DNA of 64,000 bases, from the NCBI GenBank assembly GCA_019694295.1, contig JAIBCG010000008.1, positions 1 to 64,000 on the forward strand. The letters are read 5' to 3'. Position numbers and translations under genes: made by a program. The notes under the pieces were generated by a model. That model had not been told where the DNA came from. It did no database searches and saw nothing but the letters and a program-made list of their open reading frames with translations. Below, in pieces: positions 1 to 9,223 of the stretch. The stretch comes from Saprospiraceae bacterium (GTDB lineage Bacteria > Bacteroidota > Bacteroidia > Chitinophagales > Saprospiraceae). How positions within the stretch are numbered: position 1 is the first letter of the stretch; the number at the start of each line of letters is the position of its first letter.

Positions 1-2435
1 ACAATACCATATACTATCGAATAGTTTTGTTCTATCTGATTCATATTGCTCAATGACTCTCTGATACTTTGCATTTCAGCCTGTGCAGTTGAAAAAGCCA
101 GCTGCATATCATCCGCCAAAGCCTGACTTTCGTTCAACATTGAATCTAAAACTGCTATCTGGGTGTTCAGAATCTGCATCGCGGTATCTTTTGCACCTGG
201 TGTTAAGGATGTATGAACCAATAGCTCCGCTTCAGTTAAAGCCTCTTTTTGTGAGATAATATCTTTGTGATGCTCTCTGTAAGTATTGAACTCCGGTAAA
301 TTTTTTAGATTCTCAATCAGGTATTTAATCTCAAAAATTTTTCCAAGATTACCGGAATTCTCGTGTGAATAAAATGCACCCGTCAAGGTATCCGTTGATA
401 TCAAAGATGGTGCATTATACAACTTATCATAAAGCCCCCACCTTAATCCCCAGCTTGCCACATCATCCTTAAGACTGTCACCCTTGGCTATATATCTGTC
501 CTGTTCTGTGATGTAACTTAATTGATGCAAGGTATCTGTTAAATTCTCTCCTACCGAGACACATTCAGGCTTTTGTGTCCCCTTTGATTGAAACCAACTA
601 CCAACACCATCGTTACTCTGAGCGGTATACACCGATACAGTCTTGGGCCAATATTTATTCGTCTGTACAGGAATACTCGATGCTATGTAAAATTTCGATC
701 CATTTTTAGCTCCCATTTTATTGAGATAATTTAACCCCATCAAGGCACCATCACCATCATAAGGATTACCGTACCATTGGTTTTGGTGGTTATCTTGTAC
801 ACCAATTATTGCTTCATAATCTAACACAAAACCATTGTAATGCTCATAAAAATGATTGGAATATACCCTGCTCGGGTAGCTGTCATAGTCAAAACGCATC
901 CCTTCGTATGTAGCATTAGAATAATTGCACACAGCATTGCCGTTTGTCGCGTAAAAGCTATACACTTTTGAATAGGCATAAGTATCCCCAGGGCCTTGAA
1001 CAATATTCCCACTTACAATGGCTTTATCACAGCCCACTAATCTTATCCCATAAAATTGATCATACTGAGTATTAAGACTACATTGTATCGTGTTGTCTGA
1101 TATTTCAGGGGTTTTAAGCTTAAATAACTCTATTGCATAAAAATTACCGCTTGCTTCTAATGCATTATTATTACAAATTACTTTATCAGCATAATTCGAT
1201 GATTTTATCAAATGGAAAAACCTCTTGGCATTACTTCCAGGATAATAATCCACATAATCATAGGTATTATTTGTCACTTTATAATTCTCCATTCCGCCTG
1301 CTCCTGTTGCTTCAATTCCAATCAAACAGTTGACAAATTCATTGCTGTCTATTTCTACATCCTTAGCTTTCAGCCCTTCAAATCTTATTCCTACCGGGGT
1401 TGTATAGACAGAACTTATAAACTTAGTATTAGATACAATTACATCCGAGCCTTCCTTTGAAACATCAAAACTCGTGAAATCAACAGGCAATACACTCTTG
1501 TCAAAGCCGGATACATTGATCGCTGCCACCTCATGTGTTCTGAAATCCACTAACTTTGAGCTGCCGCCAAGCACTTTGATGAAATGGCCGGGTGTTGAAG
1601 CTATCTCCTGCAGACCGGATATGTTATTGCCGAAACTGCTCCGCATCAGCGTTACACTGCTCTCATTGCTCAATATACCGAATACGCCGTTTTTAAACTG
1701 ATTGTTATACTCGTATGGCGTGCCCATAGCAAATATATCCCCAACCACAAAATGACTGATATTATTCAAAATGAGACCGGCATAGGTTTTGCCGCCTCCC
1801 AATACCCAGTCATTGTCATATCCACTAAAAGGATTCAATGATCCTCCATTGAATCTGTTATTGATGAACTGGTAATCATCACTGACCCAGTATATATGTC
1901 CTACCCCTCCACTCGTATTATTACACCGGACTCCAACAAAATTATTGTCAAAATCACAGTTGGCAATGCCCATGTAACTCAGGTTGTTATAATCAAGCGC
2001 ATACAATGCATCCGAAAATTTGCATTTATAAAACCTCCCGATAGCTCCTGATTCAATCTCGATACTTCTCCATAAGTAGTCACAGCCTCTGAACAAAGTG
2101 CTGTCAGCAGACAAAAAGACTCCCGGTTTAACGTCTATTCCACTAATATCATCCAATATTATATCTGATCCGGGAGCTATATACCAATTGACATCAACTG
2201 TAAGCGTTCCCGATATTTTCATATTAACCGGACCAGTCGGTGGTAGTAACGAAAGTACATTACTTAAACTATCTGTATGAATATTTATGTAGGTCGTATC
2301 TGTGCAATCCGTAAGCAATGTTGCCGGCATTGGCGGCACTTCTGCCTTAGAAGCTGATACCGACAGCAACTTTATCACTGTATCAAAAGGATTCAAAGAA
2401 TTCAATCTGCCAATACCAATACAACTCGCAGCCAT
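1..2435 (-). CDS. Secreted parallel beta-helix protein, 3' end outside window, 5' end frameshifted
   Basis: I translated several stretches of the minus strand (about 1-120, 600-1000 and 1920-2435) and all lie in one open frame of about 811 codons with no stop before the window edge. The protein has many short Asn/Gly-rich repeats of the right-handed beta-helix type, then from about position 240 downward a helical segment (LADDMQLAFSTAQAEM and similar). The gene at 61117-64000 has the same order, beta-helix followed by helical segment, before its T9SS sorting domain. By analogy this is a T9SS-exported surface or secreted protein whose sorting domain lies left of the window. The first in-frame ATG (2435) begins MAASC and has no signal peptide. 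The hydrophobic stretch AVIVLIV lies upstream in the same frame without a start codon. A proper start at 2551 is joined to it only if one base is added in a run of eight G. Function and ligand are unknown. Confidence 0.75.
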   Translation of the reverse strand, partial: MAASCIGIGRLNSLNPFDTVIKLLSVSASKAEVPPMPATLLTDCTDTTYINIHTDSLSNVLSLLPPTGPVNMKISGTLTVDVNWYIAPGSDIILDDISGIDVKPGVFLSADSTLFRGCDYLWRSIEIESGAIGRFYKCKFSDALYALDYNNLSYMGIANCDFDNNFVGVRCNNTSGGVGHIYWVSDDYQFINNRFNGGSLNPFSGYDNDWVLGGGKTYAGLILNNISHFVVGDIFAMGTPYEYNNQFKNGVFGILSNESSVTLMRSSFGNNISGLQEIASTPGHFIKVLGGSSKLVDFRTHEVAAINVSGFDKSVLPVDFTSFDVSKEGSDVIVSNTKFISSVYTTPVGIRFEGLKAKDVEIDSNEFVNCLIGIEATGAGGMENYKVTNNTYDYVDYYPGSNAKRFFHLIKSSNYADKVICNNNALEASGNFYAIELFKLKTPEISDNTIQCSLNTQYDQFYGIRLVGCDKAIVSGNIVQGPGDTYAYSKVYSFYATNGNAVCNYSNATYEGMRFDYDSYPSRVYSNHFYEHYNGFVLDYEAIIGVQDNHQNQWYGNPYDGDGALMGLNYLNKMGAKNGSKFYIASSIPVQTNKYWPKTVSVYTAQSNDGVGSWFQSKGTQKPECVSVGENLTDTLHQLSYITEQDRYIAKGDSLKDDVASWGLRWGLYDKLYNAPSLISTDTLTGAFYSHENSGNLGKIFEIKYLIENLKNLPEFNTYREHHKDIISQKEALTEAELLVHTSLTPGAKDTAMQILNTQIAVLDSMLNESQALADDMQLAFSTAQAEMQSIRESLSNMNQIEQNYSIVYGI

Positions 2436-2479
2436 GACAATCAAAACAATTACTGCTTGGCTAAACGAATAAAATTTTA

Positions 2480-2487
2480 CCCCCCCC
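2480..2487 (-). repeat. Poly-G tract of eight, probable frameshift site or slippage switch
   Basis: The plus strand has eight consecutive C (eight G on the coding strand) between the ATG at 2551 and the beta-helix frame. From that ATG the reading is MKALQNIRDYFASKQNYINF, then K-R-G-G and a TAA stop immediately after the tract. With nine G the reading continues as V-K-F-Y-S-F-S-Q and a hydrophobic AVIVLIV stretch into MAASC, giving a normal basic plus hydrophobic export signal. This could be a phase-variation tract caught in the off state, a fixed mutation, or a homopolymer sequencing error. Confidence 0.7.
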
Positions 2488-2551
2488 GTTTAAAATTAAT
2501 ATAATTTTGTTTAGAGGCGAAATAATCACGAATATTCTGCAGTGCTTTCAT
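2488..2551 (-). other. Out-of-frame 5' end of the beta-helix gene
   Basis: The ATG at 2551 lies about 33 bases downstream of the predicted transcription start of a good Bacteroidota promoter. The encoded 24-residue reading ends at a TAA just after the poly-G tract. The distance from this ATG to the in-frame ATG at 2435 is 116 bases, one short of 39 codons, so a single added base restores a continuous gene. I infer this is the true start region of the gene to its left. Confidence 0.6.
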
Positions 2552-2589
2552 AATGCTATGGTTTTTTGCTTAGTAAATAAGATTTGCTC

Positions 2590-2621
2590 CAAATATATGC
2601 TATTTTATTTAAAAAGTCAAG
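2590..2621 (-). promoter_or_regulatory. Promoter for the beta-helix gene
   Basis: On the minus strand a CTTG (2618-2621) precedes TATATTTG (2590-2597) by about 20 bases, matching the Bacteroidota -33/-7 pattern TTTG and TAnnTTTG. The expected start of transcription is near 2584, just upstream of the ATG at 2551. The rest of the gap 2622-2799 holds no gene; a weak inverted repeat near 2771-2793 could end the helicase transcript. Confidence 0.55.
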
Positions 2622-2799
2622 CATTTCACCAAAAATATTGCGTTTTGTACAATATTAACATCACTCCCGCACAAACTTCTCCATCTGACTGTGGCCGATA
2701 CTTTGCAGGCAAAAATTGGTACAGATTATACTTTTGGTTTTCAAATTCGTACCACTAATCAAAAGATTCTATCTGAAAATATCAGAAAAGACTCCTCAT

Positions 2800-5715
2800 T
2801 TACTCCAGCAAACCTGCCAATTCGCTCTTGTCAAGGCTGAAGAAAAACTCGTCTTCGGTAATGATTTCTGAGGCGAGCTTTTGCTTTTTCTGCTGCAAGC
2901 GGAGAATTTTTTCCTCGATGGTGTTACGAGTGATGAAGCGTATGGCAGTCACGTTCCGGTTCTGGCCTATGCGGTGCGCCCTTGCTATGGCTTGTTGTTC
3001 GGCAGCCGGATTCCACCACGGGTCTATCAGGAATACCAGCTCGGCTGCAGTAAGGTTGAGGCCTGTACCGCCTGCTTTGAGCGACAGAAAAAACCACGGA
3101 ATGTCTTTTTCCTGAAAATTCTCCACTTCGCGCTGTCTTTGTGCCAACGCCACATCACCTGTGAGTCTGCTGAACGCCACTTTATTGGATGTCGCCCAAT
3201 CACAATACTTGTCGAGGTGGCGCACATACGAGGAGAATACCAGCACTTTTTCCTTACACTGTACAGCATTTTCAAGAAAATAGCTCACCTCATCGAATTT
3301 CCCGGAAGCTACATCTGCAAACTCAGGCAACATAGCCGGATGGCTCGCTATTTGGCGCAATCGTTGTAAGGCATTGAGTATTCGTAACTTTTCCTTTCCG
3401 CTGCCATCCGTTTCCGCCATCAGGATCGAATTGCGTACAGCCGATTTTTCTTTTTCATAGATTTCGGCCTGTTGCTCATCCATTTCGCAATAATGAACAA
3501 ACTCTGTGAGTTCGGGCAACTCAGGTGTCACCGATTTTTTTGTACGCCTGAGTATAAACGGTTTTACGATACGCAGGAGTTCCTCCCGTTTTGCTTCATC
3601 CTGATTTCGCTCTATCGGAATCCGGAACGCTTGTTTAAAGCTTTGTGCACTACCGAGCATACCGGGGTTAATAAATTGCATTTGTGCCCATAGGTCTGCG
3701 AGGCTGTTTTCAATAGGCGTTCCTGTCAGGGTAAGGCGAAAAGGTGCGGATATCCTGTTGACCGCTTCAAACATCTTACTGTCTTTGTTCTTTATCTGCT
3801 GGCTTTCGTCAAGGATGATGGCATCGAATGCTATCTTCGACAGTTCATCAATATCGCGTACTAGAATATGGTAAGTAGTAAGCACAAGGTCGAATCCGCC
3901 GATCAGGCTGTGCGAACGGTAGCGTTCAGTGCCTGTGTGCGTATATTTGCTGAGTTGCGGTGCAAATTTCTCCAGCTCAATGTACCAATTAAATACAAGC
4001 GATGCCGGCAAAACGACCAAAGCGCGGATACCTGTACGCTGTGGTGCTGCAAACAAATCGAGCTGGCCTGAAGGTAATCCTGTAGTCTGTATTTTGGATT
4101 TTTTGGATGAAATATACAGCAACAAGGCAATCGACTGGAGTGTCTTGCCGAGGCCCATGTCATCTGCAAGGCAAGCACCCAGATTGTTGTCATAAAGCCG
4201 TGCTAACCATCTGAATCCAGCTTCCTGGTAAGGGCGAAGTACGGCATTCAAACCTTCCGGCAATGGAATTTCCGCTTCATTCTGTTCCGACAAACGGGCT
4301 GCCACTCCGGTAAGTTCCTCGGCGACCGTCGCCTGTGCTTTTGAAAGCCTGTAGCCGCTTTCCGTTTCTGTGCCAAGCTGTACGAGTGACGAGTATTTCT
4401 CAAACCACGCCTTTGGAATGATGAACACCGACCCGTCCGGAAGCATAAAAACCGGGTCTTCGTTCCTTATGTTGGCTGCGAGTTTTTTGAACGGAAAGCT
4501 GAATTCGCCAACATTGACCACGACATGGACGTCGAACCAGTCGCCTGCTTCTTTAGCAACAGTTTTGACATCGAAAGCCTCCAGATTTACCGGATTTTCT
4601 CCCATAAAAAACGGAGCGACTTTAAATCCTGCAGCTACAAGGGCCGGTTTGTTTTTTCTCAGCCATAGGCAGGCATCTAACATGTCTGCTACCGATTGTT
4701 CCGGCAGTGCAAAAACTTGTCCGGCTGTTTTTTCGAGTCCACATTCTGTCAGTTTTTCGGCAATATGACGTTCAGTTTCCATATTCCGCACATAATTCAG
4801 GATACGGATGTTCCCTTCCGGCGAAATCTCGATTTTCTTCCTTCCCTGCCTTATGTCGTGAAATTCGAATTTTTGTTCATGATAATAACAGGCGAGTTTC
4901 AAGACGAACTTTCCTTCAAAAACGCTTTCCGTCAACTGCAATTCCGGATTTTCGGGTATGTCGTATTTGTCTATGTCAAACCCTTCTGCCTCAATCTCTA
5001 CTGATGAATCTAGCTTCAACACGAACGACTTAAAATAAGTGTGTACCAGCTTGTCGGGCACAATCACTACGTTTTTCGTTGCAAAAGGTAGCAACATATT
5101 CCCATTAATGCCTACCGGTTGATACAGTTTCCTGTCAATGATGGCCCAGGCCGGATGATTGCATACGACCATGATATTTTTATCCATCAAAGCGACATCC
5201 TGCTCATCGGAAATCAGGTTCAGCTTATAAGAGACTGATGTATCAGACTTTTTTAGGGAAATATTTGCCATTGATGAAGTCGAAGAAACATCCACGCAGT
5301 GGTCGGCAATATATGCTTTACGAAAAATGTTAATGCACAAGACGATGTCGTTTTCAACCAATTGTCTAAGTATGAAATCAATCTTTTTTTCGATGAAATG
5401 CTTGAGAACCGCCTTTATTTTTTCATCCCCCATCAGTACAGAAAGCTTGTCTCCGTTCCGGATTTTTGCCCCGAATCTTGCAGTAAGAGATTCGTCACTT
5501 ATTTCGTCCAAAACCTGAAACAGCTTATGATGGCTTTCAATTGTATCCGGAAAAAAATCGCGGTAATTGTTGAGGAAAATTTTCTGCGACACTGTGCTCA
5601 CTTCACGCATATCAGGCGAAGGTGCAGCCCATGCAGATACAGTTATACCGATAACATCATGATTATCAATACTTAACACCAGTTTGTATCCAGAATATTC
5701 TCCCATTTTCATCAA
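2800..5715 (-). CDS. SNF2-family DEAD/DEAH-box helicase
   Basis: A 971-residue Swi2/Snf2-type ATPase that would translocate on double-stranded DNA and remodel bound proteins. The N-terminal 480 residues are poorly conserved, as in bacterial SNF2 proteins. Motif I is DDMGLGKT (about 518-525), motif II is DESQ (about 635), motif III is LTGTP (about 663), motif V is AGGTGLNL (about 881), and motif VI is QAIARAHRIGQ (about 908-918), so both RecA-like lobes are complete. Between motifs I and Ia sits QLDLF (about 551-555), which resembles a sliding-clamp binding pentapeptide. No zinc-finger SWIM domain was recognised. It stands alone, separated by a terminator-like hairpin from the VCBS genes. The start at 5715 begins MMKMGEY; the ATGs two or three codons later are equally possible. 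Its substrate is unknown. Confidence 0.93.
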   Translation of the reverse strand: MMKMGEYSGYKLVLSIDNHDVIGITVSAWAAPSPDMREVSTVSQKIFLNNYRDFFPDTIESHHKLFQVLDEISDESLTARFGAKIRNGDKLSVLMGDEKIKAVLKHFIEKKIDFILRQLVENDIVLCINIFRKAYIADHCVDVSSTSSMANISLKKSDTSVSYKLNLISDEQDVALMDKNIMVVCNHPAWAIIDRKLYQPVGINGNMLLPFATKNVVIVPDKLVHTYFKSFVLKLDSSVEIEAEGFDIDKYDIPENPELQLTESVFEGKFVLKLACYYHEQKFEFHDIRQGRKKIEISPEGNIRILNYVRNMETERHIAEKLTECGLEKTAGQVFALPEQSVADMLDACLWLRKNKPALVAAGFKVAPFFMGENPVNLEAFDVKTVAKEAGDWFDVHVVVNVGEFSFPFKKLAANIRNEDPVFMLPDGSVFIIPKAWFEKYSSLVQLGTETESGYRLSKAQATVAEELTGVAARLSEQNEAEIPLPEGLNAVLRPYQEAGFRWLARLYDNNLGACLADDMGLGKTLQSIALLLYISSKKSKIQTTGLPSGQLDLFAAPQRTGIRALVVLPASLVFNWYIELEKFAPQLSKYTHTGTERYRSHSLIGGFDLVLTTYHILVRDIDELSKIAFDAIILDESQQIKNKDSKMFEAVNRISAPFRLTLTGTPIENSLADLWAQMQFINPGMLGSAQSFKQAFRIPIERNQDEAKREELLRIVKPFILRRTKKSVTPELPELTEFVHYCEMDEQQAEIYEKEKSAVRNSILMAETDGSGKEKLRILNALQRLRQIASHPAMLPEFADVASGKFDEVSYFLENAVQCKEKVLVFSSYVRHLDKYCDWATSNKVAFSRLTGDVALAQRQREVENFQEKDIPWFFLSLKAGGTGLNLTAAELVFLIDPWWNPAAEQQAIARAHRIGQNRNVTAIRFITRNTIEEKILRLQQKKQKLASEIITEDEFFFSLDKSELAGLLE

Positions 5716-5765
5716 AAAAGAAGGCGAATATCTGAATTTCTACTGCGTTTTACATCATTTTTACA

Positions 5766-5808
5766 CAAAAACAAAATCCCCGACGATCAAGGCAGGCAAT
5801 CGAGGATT
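5766..5808 (-). terminator. Terminator of the VCBS gene pair
   Basis: On the minus strand AATCC-T-CGAT (from 5808) pairs with ATCG...GGATT (to 5775) across a loop of about ten bases, followed by a T-rich run (TTTTGTTTTTG). It lies just downstream of the stop at 5834 and upstream of the helicase gene. The stem is imperfect, with a small internal bulge. Confidence 0.5.
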
Positions 5809-5833
5809 AGATTTATTTGACCATGCAGTATGG

Positions 5834-8800
5834 TCAAATGGCTGGTATTTTTTTCTTGTTGATTTTTATTACATCCATGTAGTAATTATTATTGCCTACA
5901 AGCAGCAACAACACATCGGGTGAGGATGTATTGACGAGTTTGATATCGCGTACATCGTTAGGTATATAAAGGCCTGATTGTAGGACACTTACAGGTTTAA
6001 ATCCACCTTTGCCATCACCAATCAGTATTCGTCCTTTACCTGCATCAGCACGGCCGGTTTCTACCTCAGACACGAACAGGTTACCGCCTACTATGATATC
6101 CTGGATTTTATCGTTATTGATATCGAGTATCTGGATGCCCATGATAGGAGCCATCTGTACTTCATTAGGCAGATACCTAATTTCGAATTTGCCGCTGCCT
6201 TTGTTCATCAGTATGCCCGATTTGAAGCTTGTGACGCGGTAATGGATTGATTTGTCGAGATTATCCTTGCCATAGACCTCGTCCAGATTGGCATTGGCAA
6301 AATCGGTATAGGTTTTGAATTTCTGCTCTATCTGAGGTATCTGTTGTGAAGAACATTGACGCCCTCGCACAGGTACTGTCTCCTTACCATCCAGCAAATA
6401 ACCCAGAACGATGTCATATTTACCATTTTCATCGAAGTCATTGCCATAGATATCAAACGGTTTTTCTTTAGTAGCTTTATACTTATAGTTAGTTCCTAAG
6501 TTGCCGAGTACAAAGTCAGTTTTCCCATCGTTGTTGAAGTCGCCGGGCTCAATGCTAAACCACCATCCGTTAGAGCCATCAAAGCCCATTTCCTTAGTTC
6601 GGTTAACAAATTTTCCACCTTCGTTGATCAGGAAAGTAAGTGGCATCCATTCACCGGTTATAAGCAGATCCTGGCGGCCGTCTTCGTTGAGATCGGCTAC
6701 AGCACCATCTGTAACCATGCCGAGTACACCATTGTCAGGAAGTATGTCGGATGTTACGTCAATGAATTTTCCTTTATCGTTGCGCATAATATAACTTTTT
6801 GCCGGTTTTGGATACTCTGAACCTACCTGTCGGCCTCCTCTGAAAAGATCGAGGTCACCGTCGCCATCCATATCAAATGGTATGGCACATGAGCCACTTG
6901 ATGTAATGGCCGGGAGGTCTTTTGATTTAGTAAAATTGCCTTTTCCGTCGTTCAGGTACAGCCTGTCTTGATACATTGTACCTTCAGGACCAAACTCGTA
7001 GCCGCCGCTTACGATGTACAGATCTGTATCACCGTCACCATCTGCATCAAAGAATACTGAGCCTATGTCTTCATATTTTTTGTCGGCAGCTATAGCCGGC
7101 TGCGATGTTTTTCTGAATGTCATATCGGCATTCTGAATGTAAAGTGTACCTTCCTGACCTGCAGCACCACCTATGTAGAAATCTTCAAGCTTGTCACCGT
7201 TGATATCTGCTTTTGAGATGTGCGGCCCCCATTGCGACATATTATGAGGTAATAAAATCTGAGTCTGATAATCATCATACGAATTTTCGGTATGTTTGAA
7301 ACTGACGCCCGACTCTTTTGTAAAATTTTGAGCAAGGTCAAACAGTTCAGGTTTCGGGATACAGCTACCATTTGGTGCGGCCTTTTCATAATCTAATGAA
7401 ATGAGTTGGTCTGCCTTTATATTTTCCATAATCTGACATTTGCCGTCAGGCCACTCGACACGTAACTTTTTTACAGTTTTATTCTTGCCGATACCAAAAT
7501 GAATAACCGGTTCAACAGCTGACTGAAAACCACGCACCGTATTGAATTCGCGGTACTGAGAGCCAGTTTCGGTTTCTACTACAACCTTTGCTCCGTGTGG
7601 GTGCATTTTTTTGCTTGGTTCGAATTTCACACGCAGGTAATGATTATTGTTTCCGTTTTCCTGTTCAAGGTTTTTGTACAACGATACGGGCTCGTCGAGG
7701 TTGCAGACTATCAGGTCAATGTCGCCGTCGTTGTCAAAATCGGCATACGCAGCACCTGTACTGATGGTAGCTCGGTTGGCAATGCCACTTTCTTTTGATA
7801 ACTGCGAAAAAGTAAGGTCTCCGTTGTTTCTGAAAAACTGATTTTCAACCCTGATTGGATTTACAGAACGCAGGAATTCCTTTACCATCTCTACTTTTTT
7901 CTTCTCGTCCTTTTCGTGCGACATTTTTTTGTTAAAAGGCTTGTATTTGTCTTTAAACTGGATGGCTTTGTAATAGCCGTTGCTAATGAAGAGGTCCTGC
8001 TCACCATCGTTGTCAGCATCGAAGAACAGAGGCGACCAGCTCCATTCGGTCCGATCGATACCAGCCAATTGACCAATTTCTGAGAATGTATTGTTTCCGT
8101 TGTTGAGGTGAAGCATATTGCGCATATACTGGTAATGGTAACCAAGTTTGGTAAGGTTCCAGAATCGCTGGATATCCATACTCGCCATATTGGCTTTTTC
8201 GCTAAAATTGCTCATTGCTGCCATTTCTGCTACTACCAGGTCCTGAAACCCGTCGTGATTGATATCGCTGAAGTCAACACCCATACTTGACATAGAGATG
8301 TGATACATGGCAGTATATATCTGGTTAGTGAATTTGCCATTGCCATCATTGATGAACAAAGCATCCGGCTCGTCGTGGTCAACTGCTACAAATATATCTG
8401 TATAGCCATCGTTATTGAAGTCGCATGCACTCAGACCAAGTACCCAGCCAAAATACTGTACATTTGCCTCTTTGGTCACGTCACTGAAAGTGCCATTACC
8501 GTTATTTTTGTACAAATGTGTACTGTATTCATGTGGAGGATTCAGAAAATCCTTGTAGTTATCCATAAACAAACGGGTTCTGTTGGGATGGTGGTTACCT
8601 GTCATCAGGTCAACTAGTCCGTCTTTGTTGTAGTCAAGGAATGTGGCAGTTATGGTATATGCGTTATCGTTTATGCCATATTGTTTGGCCTGGTCTGTGA
8701 AGGTACCATCGCCTTTGTTGATGAATAACACGTTTTCTCTCAGTTGTGGGCTGTCATAATAATTTCGACAAACGTATATGTCGAGAAAACCATCGTTGTT

Positions 8801-9223
8801 GACATCGGCAGTAGCCACACCCGAACACCAGCTGCCCTTTAGCACTATGCCGGCCTTCTCCGAGACATCTTCGAATTTCATCCCGCCTTTATTGAAATAC
8901 ATCTTATTGTCAACAAAATTTCCGGTAAAGAAAACATCGGTGAGTCCGTCATTATTAAAGTCACCACAGGCTACACCTCCACCGTCAAAGCCATTGATGT
9001 ATTCAAATATTGGTCTGAGTTGCTCGATGTCCAGATTATTGCTAAAACTCAAGCCGGTCTCTGTGGGTGAAAGCTCTTGAAATTTTGGAACGTGTGCTGC
9101 ACCGTCCTTTGTTGTCGAATTTGACCTCTGCTCATTTTTACATGATGACAAAGACATTATGATAAATGATAATATACAAATTACTTTCAAATAAGCTTTC
9201 ATCTTGGCTTGTTTATGGTTCAT
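5834..9223 (-). CDS. Large VCBS/FG-GAP repeat lipoprotein with ASPIC/UnbV domain
   Basis: A 1129-residue protein. Residues 8-27 form a lipoprotein signal (MKAYLKVICILSFIIMSLSS then Cys28), so it should be anchored in the outer membrane or exported to the surface. Residues of about 70-520 carry repeated DxNxDGxxD calcium-binding loops of FG-GAP/VCBS beta-propeller blades, for example DFNNDGLTD, DVNNDGFLD and DADNDGEQD. An ASPIC/UnbV domain follows at about 530-615 (RGFQSAVEPVIHFGIG, RVEWPDG). A second set of blades fills 660-1120. This CRTAC1-like two-propeller layout is common in Bacteroidota, usually annotated as VCBS repeat or RNA-binding protein; no RNA role is supported here. It starts four bases after the stop of the paralogue upstream, so the two form an operon. 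ATG 9223 or ATG 9202 could be the start. Ligand unknown. Confidence 0.88.
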   Translation of the reverse strand: MNHKQAKMKAYLKVICILSFIIMSLSSCKNEQRSNSTTKDGAAHVPKFQELSPTETGLSFSNNLDIEQLRPIFEYINGFDGGGVACGDFNNDGLTDVFFTGNFVDNKMYFNKGGMKFEDVSEKAGIVLKGSWCSGVATADVNNDGFLDIYVCRNYYDSPQLRENVLFINKGDGTFTDQAKQYGINDNAYTITATFLDYNKDGLVDLMTGNHHPNRTRLFMDNYKDFLNPPHEYSTHLYKNNGNGTFSDVTKEANVQYFGWVLGLSACDFNNDGYTDIFVAVDHDEPDALFINDGNGKFTNQIYTAMYHISMSSMGVDFSDINHDGFQDLVVAEMAAMSNFSEKANMASMDIQRFWNLTKLGYHYQYMRNMLHLNNGNNTFSEIGQLAGIDRTEWSWSPLFFDADNDGEQDLFISNGYYKAIQFKDKYKPFNKKMSHEKDEKKKVEMVKEFLRSVNPIRVENQFFRNNGDLTFSQLSKESGIANRATISTGAAYADFDNDGDIDLIVCNLDEPVSLYKNLEQENGNNNHYLRVKFEPSKKMHPHGAKVVVETETGSQYREFNTVRGFQSAVEPVIHFGIGKNKTVKKLRVEWPDGKCQIMENIKADQLISLDYEKAAPNGSCIPKPELFDLAQNFTKESGVSFKHTENSYDDYQTQILLPHNMSQWGPHISKADINGDKLEDFYIGGAAGQEGTLYIQNADMTFRKTSQPAIAADKKYEDIGSVFFDADGDGDTDLYIVSGGYEFGPEGTMYQDRLYLNDGKGNFTKSKDLPAITSSGSCAIPFDMDGDGDLDLFRGGRQVGSEYPKPAKSYIMRNDKGKFIDVTSDILPDNGVLGMVTDGAVADLNEDGRQDLLITGEWMPLTFLINEGGKFVNRTKEMGFDGSNGWWFSIEPGDFNNDGKTDFVLGNLGTNYKYKATKEKPFDIYGNDFDENGKYDIVLGYLLDGKETVPVRGRQCSSQQIPQIEQKFKTYTDFANANLDEVYGKDNLDKSIHYRVTSFKSGILMNKGSGKFEIRYLPNEVQMAPIMGIQILDINNDKIQDIIVGGNLFVSEVETGRADAGKGRILIGDGKGGFKPVSVLQSGLYIPNDVRDIKLVNTSSPDVLLLLVGNNNYYMDVIKINKKKIPAI

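Follow-up and report, generated by a model that had tools for sequence, protein, structure and literature searches.

Homopolymer slippage is a textbook mechanism in Neisseria, Haemophilus and Campylobacter, and phase variation in Bacteroidota is known chiefly through DNA inversion. In Neisseria, opa genes carry CTCTT repeats within the sequence that codes for the signal peptide (PMC11868660 names Opa phase variation). Campylobacter CapD autotransporters contain a poly-G within the coding sequence (PMC7168839), and a poly-G of about 7-11 controls the outer-membrane protein genes tpr and tp0126 of Treponema pallidum (PMC7864442). Invertible promoters switch the capsule and SusC/SusD in Bacteroides (PMC11868660).

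We analysed a run of eight G at a surface-protein locus on the minus strand of the window (the whole 64,000-nt stretch of Saprospiraceae DNA examined). The proposed system is like Opa in having a simple repeat in signal-peptide coding sequence, an ON or OFF state set by the reading frame, and a multi-copy surface family that would switch independently; it is unlike Opa, a pentamer system in one protein family of Proteobacteria, in that the Bacteroidia have mononucleotide G/C tracts in genes for unrelated proteins. It shares with CapD an intragenic poly-G that should turn a surface protein on or off through the reading frame, but CapD proteins are type V autotransporters of Epsilonproteobacteria, whereas the proteins considered here are of Sec and type IX secretion system (T9SS) type, and their tracts keep to the signal peptide and have a flanking triplet in common. 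Unlike the Treponema pallidum tract, which lies in a promoter and acts on transcription, the Saprospiraceae tract is inside the reading frame. The Bacteroides promoters likewise provide phase variation of the cell surface, and in the same phylum, but by site-specific DNA inversion, whereas homopolymer slippage is proposed here. The mechanism is of a known contingency type; what appears to be new is the same signal-peptide tract before different secreted proteins across Bacteroidia. Searches of the open-access literature for homopolymer phase variation in T9SS, Bacteroidota, Saprospiraceae and Flavobacterium returned nothing on point; most subscription papers were outside their scope, and novelty is unproven.

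The tract and its reading frames at the window locus

The tract is located inside the translated leader, 64 nt downstream of the leader ATG, and not in the promoter (Table 1). In the assembled 8-G state the leader comprises 24 codons and is ended by the TAA directly 3' of the tract. Addition of one G fuses the leader to ...KRGGVKFYSFSQAVIVLIVMAASCIGIG... on the minus strand, the 9-G reading being ...FKRGGVKFYSFSQAVIVLIVMAASC..., and the joined frame of 829 codons has no stops and is open as far as window position 3. A Sec signal peptide is readable by eye in the ON frame only, without a SignalP prediction. The first start codon within the long frame is TTG 2444. The sequence-only reading had described a promoter, an ATG at 2551, eight G and an immediate TAA, which held as described; its claim that one added G gives a long open frame also held (829 codons), and its claim that the same G creates an export signal held by eye only.

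Table 1. Features of the window locus, in window coordinates
Feature	Position	Strand	Remarks
24-bp remnant identical to T9SS sorting-domain gene 3' ends (...EKFVRE-stop)	2658..2681	-	just upstream of promoter
Promoter TTGACT-17-TATATT, overlapping Bacteroidota-type -7 box TATATTTG (TAnnTTTG)	2590..2620	-	38 nt upstream of leader ATG
Leader frame in the 8-G (OFF) state, MKALQNIRDYFASKQNYINFKRGG-stop	2477..2551	-	ATG 2551; TAA 2479-2477
G8 tract, proposed slippage switch	2480..2487	-	long frame in phase with leader at 9 (or 6) G
Hydrophobic part of export signal, AVIVLIVMAASC	2421..2456	-	in leader frame only when ON; by-eye reading
Surface-protein body, open frame truncated by contig start	3..2480	-	distant homologues are right-handed beta-helix proteins

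A G8 run is by itself unremarkable in a single window, being present in 32 of 100 shuffles, and it is the position and recurrence of this run, not its mere presence, that exceed chance.

No Rfam match was found over window positions 1-9000, and a search of the window protein against Pfam and NCBIfam gave no domain. Its beta-helix assignment rests on relatives: a homologue (L054) and the protein at sister locus C1 match Pfam Beta_helix (PF13229), which its own sequence does not. It is also related to the protein at sister locus C20 (blastp E=2e-6). Window position 1 is base 1 of contig C136 in a 139-contig, 3.08-Mb draft genome. The gene is thus assembled without its 3' end, which leaves the total length and C-terminus of the protein undetermined. 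The T9SS label given earlier held in part: a sorting domain is invisible since the contig end cuts the gene, and the label is inferred from sister genes, three of which (C20, C1 and C5, sharing the leader or tract) carry a type A sorting domain (TIGR04183 / PF18962).

The 24-bp sorting-domain gene end listed in Table 1 is repeated at C134:2780, C50:4387 and C89:1-90, and many contigs of this genome break off inside T9SS sorting-domain genes. Together, the repeated ends and the contig breaks hint at recombination or gene conversion among surface-protein genes.

Recurrence of the tract in the genome, family and class

When the DNA of the same genome was searched with the 5' region of the window locus, the leader turned up again at C20 and C3, where leader, G8 and TAAAATTTTATT again precede the gene. 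The C20 cargo is a PKD/beta-helix T9SS protein of 1214 aa with the type A sorting domain TIGR04183, and the C3 cargo is an M12-like metalloprotease truncated by a contig end. The core AACGGGGGGGGTAAAATTTTATT is invariant at the three loci while the surrounding aligned region is only 68% alike, and the spacing is alike as well, with the ATG 38-39 nt downstream of the promoter box and 63-64 nt upstream of the tract. Homologous leaders read MKAQQNIRNYF (C20), MKTQPNYQKEF (C3) and MKREQNYRKKI (C1). At C3, a 1-nt deletion before the tract imposes the opposite frame correction despite the same core. At C1, a G7 tract with the leader MKREQNYRKKIKLLPNYILSYMGG-stop lies ahead of a beta-helix T9SS protein (PF13229), ON at 8, with the caveat that the long frame has an alternative TTG start; at C5, a T9SS protein of 357 aa has a C8 run within its signal peptide and is ON at 7 or 10. 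All five cargo genes (window, C20, C3, C1 and C5) are out of frame as assembled.

A census of the whole 3.08-Mb genome found six G/C runs of at least 8 and ten of at least 7. Five of the six fall in signal peptides, four of them out of frame in genes for secreted proteins and one in frame in gldN, and one of the 7-base runs is a further out-of-frame signal-peptide member. The probability of 6 of 10 tracts falling in the first 120 bases of genes is about 1e-4, under our generous assumption that 10% of the genome is 'first 120 bases of a gene'; three of these tracts share a leader and are hence not independent. The other long G/C runs lie between genes (C45:25285), inside ordinary genes (C50 and C75) or in an intergenic position (C22), and were set aside.

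The in-frame G8 belongs to a gldN-like T9SS component gene (L142; C45:9919-9926, about position 1075, minus strand), within the signal peptide MKFQLKLFLFIACLGGASVSYAQ. If this run slips, secretion of the whole cargo set could be switched.

One other genome of the same genus (G001) was among those searched. It holds L052, which is homologous to the window protein at 26% identity (leader MKTKQNYLKEFKLLQNLISSMRGG-stop, G8, OFF), two further loci that are also OFF (L122, leader MKTPQKFFLAERKLMNSLNYCNNIILKGGG-stop, G10; L190, C9) and the homologous leaders MKTKQNYLKEF and MKTPQKFF. Within the genus, 8/8 cargo-gene tracts are out of frame.

For the family, we curated 41 signal-peptide tracts by pattern searches followed by reading of the sequence contexts. 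They come from 15 genomes in 12 genera and have lengths of 7-12; 9 are in frame and 32 out. (The length tabulation under-counts L110, L111, L112 and L217 by one, as the body anchor includes the last base.) Poly-G encodes GG or GGG and poly-C encodes PP or PPP, at or near the point where the basic part of the signal gives way to the hydrophobic one. Both phases occur among close relatives. Same-leader pairs were found in G002 (L210 C9 ON, L215 C8 OFF; dN/dS 0.20), G024 (L193 G9 ON, L194 G10 OFF; dN/dS 0.13), G117 (L113 G9 ON, L114 G11 OFF; dN/dS 0.63, the copies being near-identical with few changes) and G155 (L110 G10, L112 G8), in addition to L207 ON and L205 OFF (dN/dS 0.11); orthologues in two species of one genus likewise differ (G226 L217 C9 ON, G155 L189 C8 OFF). 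Because ON/OFF dN/dS is 0.11-0.20 in three pairs, the OFF copies are maintained as coding genes. L198 and L208 were rejected as an ON/OFF pair, as the proper leader MKTSRNFVTPP puts both OFF. A G10 tract, OFF, is also present (L143) in the finished genome G149, which we take to be Haliscomenobacter hydrossis (PMC3156403).

ON states make up somewhat less than one third of the set (8/40 without gldN, p=0.09), and 1 of 13 outside the family. Genes that are ON at 7 escape a search limited to runs of at least 8, and this may account for the OFF excess; a genuine preference for OFF, or decoding by some other route, is also conceivable. Across 398 family genomes, matches to a loose core (AAACGGGGGG..TAAAA) showed, where examined, no homology outside the motif, and the exact window-tract core had only three matches in GTDB contigs, in unrelated taxa, which we judged to be chance. 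At L196 (G027:C39), TTGTAATCTCC is directly duplicated (twice) before G8, possibly a second frame-breaking route.

The tracts share a flank. Read on the G strand, the signal-peptide tract is GGGGGGGGTAA whichever strand codes, giving the strand-symmetric forms G8+TAA and TTA+C8. In a set found without TAA in the search pattern, TAA follows 10/16 signal-peptide tracts vs 1/15 other tracts (Fisher p=0.002). For genes on the C strand, TTA precedes the run in 22 of 110 listed ATGAA..C8 loci, by far the commonest triplet (the next has 9), and all 22 of these loci are open from the ATG. TAA is an immediate stop in one OFF frame of the G orientation; the C orientation gives no such stop, so this role is not the whole reason for the flank. 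We leave its cause unexplained; the context for slippage, a preference for certain amino acids ([FIV]-T-P-P) or a role at the DNA level could each be involved. A bolder reading, which we doubt, is that GGGGGGGGTAA/TTACCCCCCCC is a dedicated strand-symmetric motif at the basic-hydrophobic border within export signals, with a specific factor that makes, spreads or changes the length of tracts as a class-wide system. Were it true, surface diversification would be class-wide and not a matter of separately evolved slippery runs.

Across the class, the pattern ATGAA..TTACCCCCCCC gave 30 matches in 20 of 295 Bacteroidia genomes, vs 8 for a reversed control. Outside Saprospiraceae, 9 genomes from 7 families have 14 signal-peptide tracts between them (1 in frame, 12 out, 1 undetermined), MKTPKQKTSFTPPPQALKAAVVACIGLLSINTINAQ and MKKQNPVTPPPHAHAFKSLILNSLFILCIMPSNAQ being examples. 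The tract proteins of these families include one with SprB repeats (L219), others with coiled-coil ends, and proteins without a type A sorting domain. In some of these genomes several loci have the same poly-C leader (G675: L220, L239 and L246; G650: L221 and L247; G422: L229 and L243), and tract lengths across such repeated-leader loci differ, from C8 to C11.

These comparisons bear on three points of the sequence-only reading. Its suggested search of related genomes for the same gene with a G-tract was positive (G001 L052 has the same leader and G8). Its phase-variation reading is supported by the shared-leader paralogues, the same-genus homologue, the presence of both phases and the selected OFF copies, switching within a population being inferred. 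Its restriction to a single gene was too narrow: many secreted proteins, poly-C besides poly-G, and taxa across Bacteroidia are involved.

The proposed slipped-strand switch

Slipped-strand phase variation of surface-protein export is, very probably, the best explanation. It rests on the tract, its frames, the shared leader and the promoter, on the variation of length and phase between homologues, and on intact bodies under selection, all of which are shown. In this model, G8 would be a contingency tract at which slipped-strand mispairing in replication gains or loses single G's, each change shifting the frame between the promoter and leader ATG and the remainder of the export signal; slippage within the strain and the change in expression are both inferred. 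With 9 (or 6) G, a Sec signal peptide would be completed, its start codon and basic n-region coming from the leader. The large beta-helix protein would then be exported and would probably pass on through the type IX secretion system, a transport step that is likewise inferred for the window protein. With 7 or 8 G, translation would halt just past the tract and no exported protein would be made, so that the assembled genome would represent the OFF state at this locus. The window locus would be one of several independently switched surface proteins, giving many surface combinations per population. Any adaptive role is inferred and not shown; escape from phages or predators, or adhesion, might be served.

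Several criteria of a contingency locus are met: a homopolymer within the reading frame whose length sets ON or OFF (at the window locus), related copies that differ in tract length and are found in both phases, and OFF copies that are not decaying. A point against is that 8-base tracts are rather short for slippage to be fast.

Alternative explanations and biological meaning

Programmed ribosomal frameshifting or transcriptional slippage would have CGG GGG GGG TAA decoded with a -1 shift, to a set level and without DNA switching. In its favour, the 0-frame stop at the window and C20 abuts a run that permits a tandem -1 slip, both runs are exactly 8 G, and OFF states are in excess. Against it, the shift needed is inconstant (+1 nt in 20 loci, +2 nt, equivalent to -1 nt, in 12, and none in 9), sister C3 with the same core requires the opposite shift owing to its 1-nt deletion, and lengths range over 7-12 among close paralogues. 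We reject it as the main idea because the required direction varies, and regard it as very unlikely.

Homopolymer sequencing or assembly error, with a true tract of 9 G and an intact gene, was the main alternative raised earlier. The genome is a draft of 139 contigs from an unknown platform, and several of the loci are at contig ends. However, error would have to single out signal peptides of secreted genes, and to do so in both directions and in many assemblies made independently, and sister loci C3 and C5 would require 7 or 10, not 9. The tract is also out of frame in the finished, polished genome of Haliscomenobacter hydrossis, with a stated error rate of <1 in 100,000 (PMC3156403). The pattern, signal-peptide-selective over many genomes, disfavours this explanation, which we hold to be very improbable.

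One-off frameshifts in decaying pseudogenes would account for the broken frame of most copies, but bodies of 300-1200 codons are otherwise open, ON vs OFF dN/dS is 0.11-0.20, no further stops occur in three OFF lineages, and every break falls at the same G/C tract, so that this explanation is practically ruled out. The earlier statement that the rest of the gene is undamaged and is no old pseudogene is thus supported, with a body open to the contig start and OFF relatives under purifying selection.

A downstream start (TTG 2444, the first start codon of the long frame, or ATG 2435, MAASC...) that leaves the leader outside the protein can be all but dismissed. Its product would have no basic n-region and would miss most of an export signal's hydrophobic segment. 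In homologues, start, basic residues and tract all come before the hydrophobic stretch, and nine of them are in frame.

Phase variation of surface-protein export by strand slippage remains the preferred reading. Annotation pipelines may drop many such genes as frameshifted pseudogenes. If the reading is true, many gliding, polymer-degrading and sludge bacteria would keep mixed surface populations, with a bearing on phage resistance, adhesion and predation.
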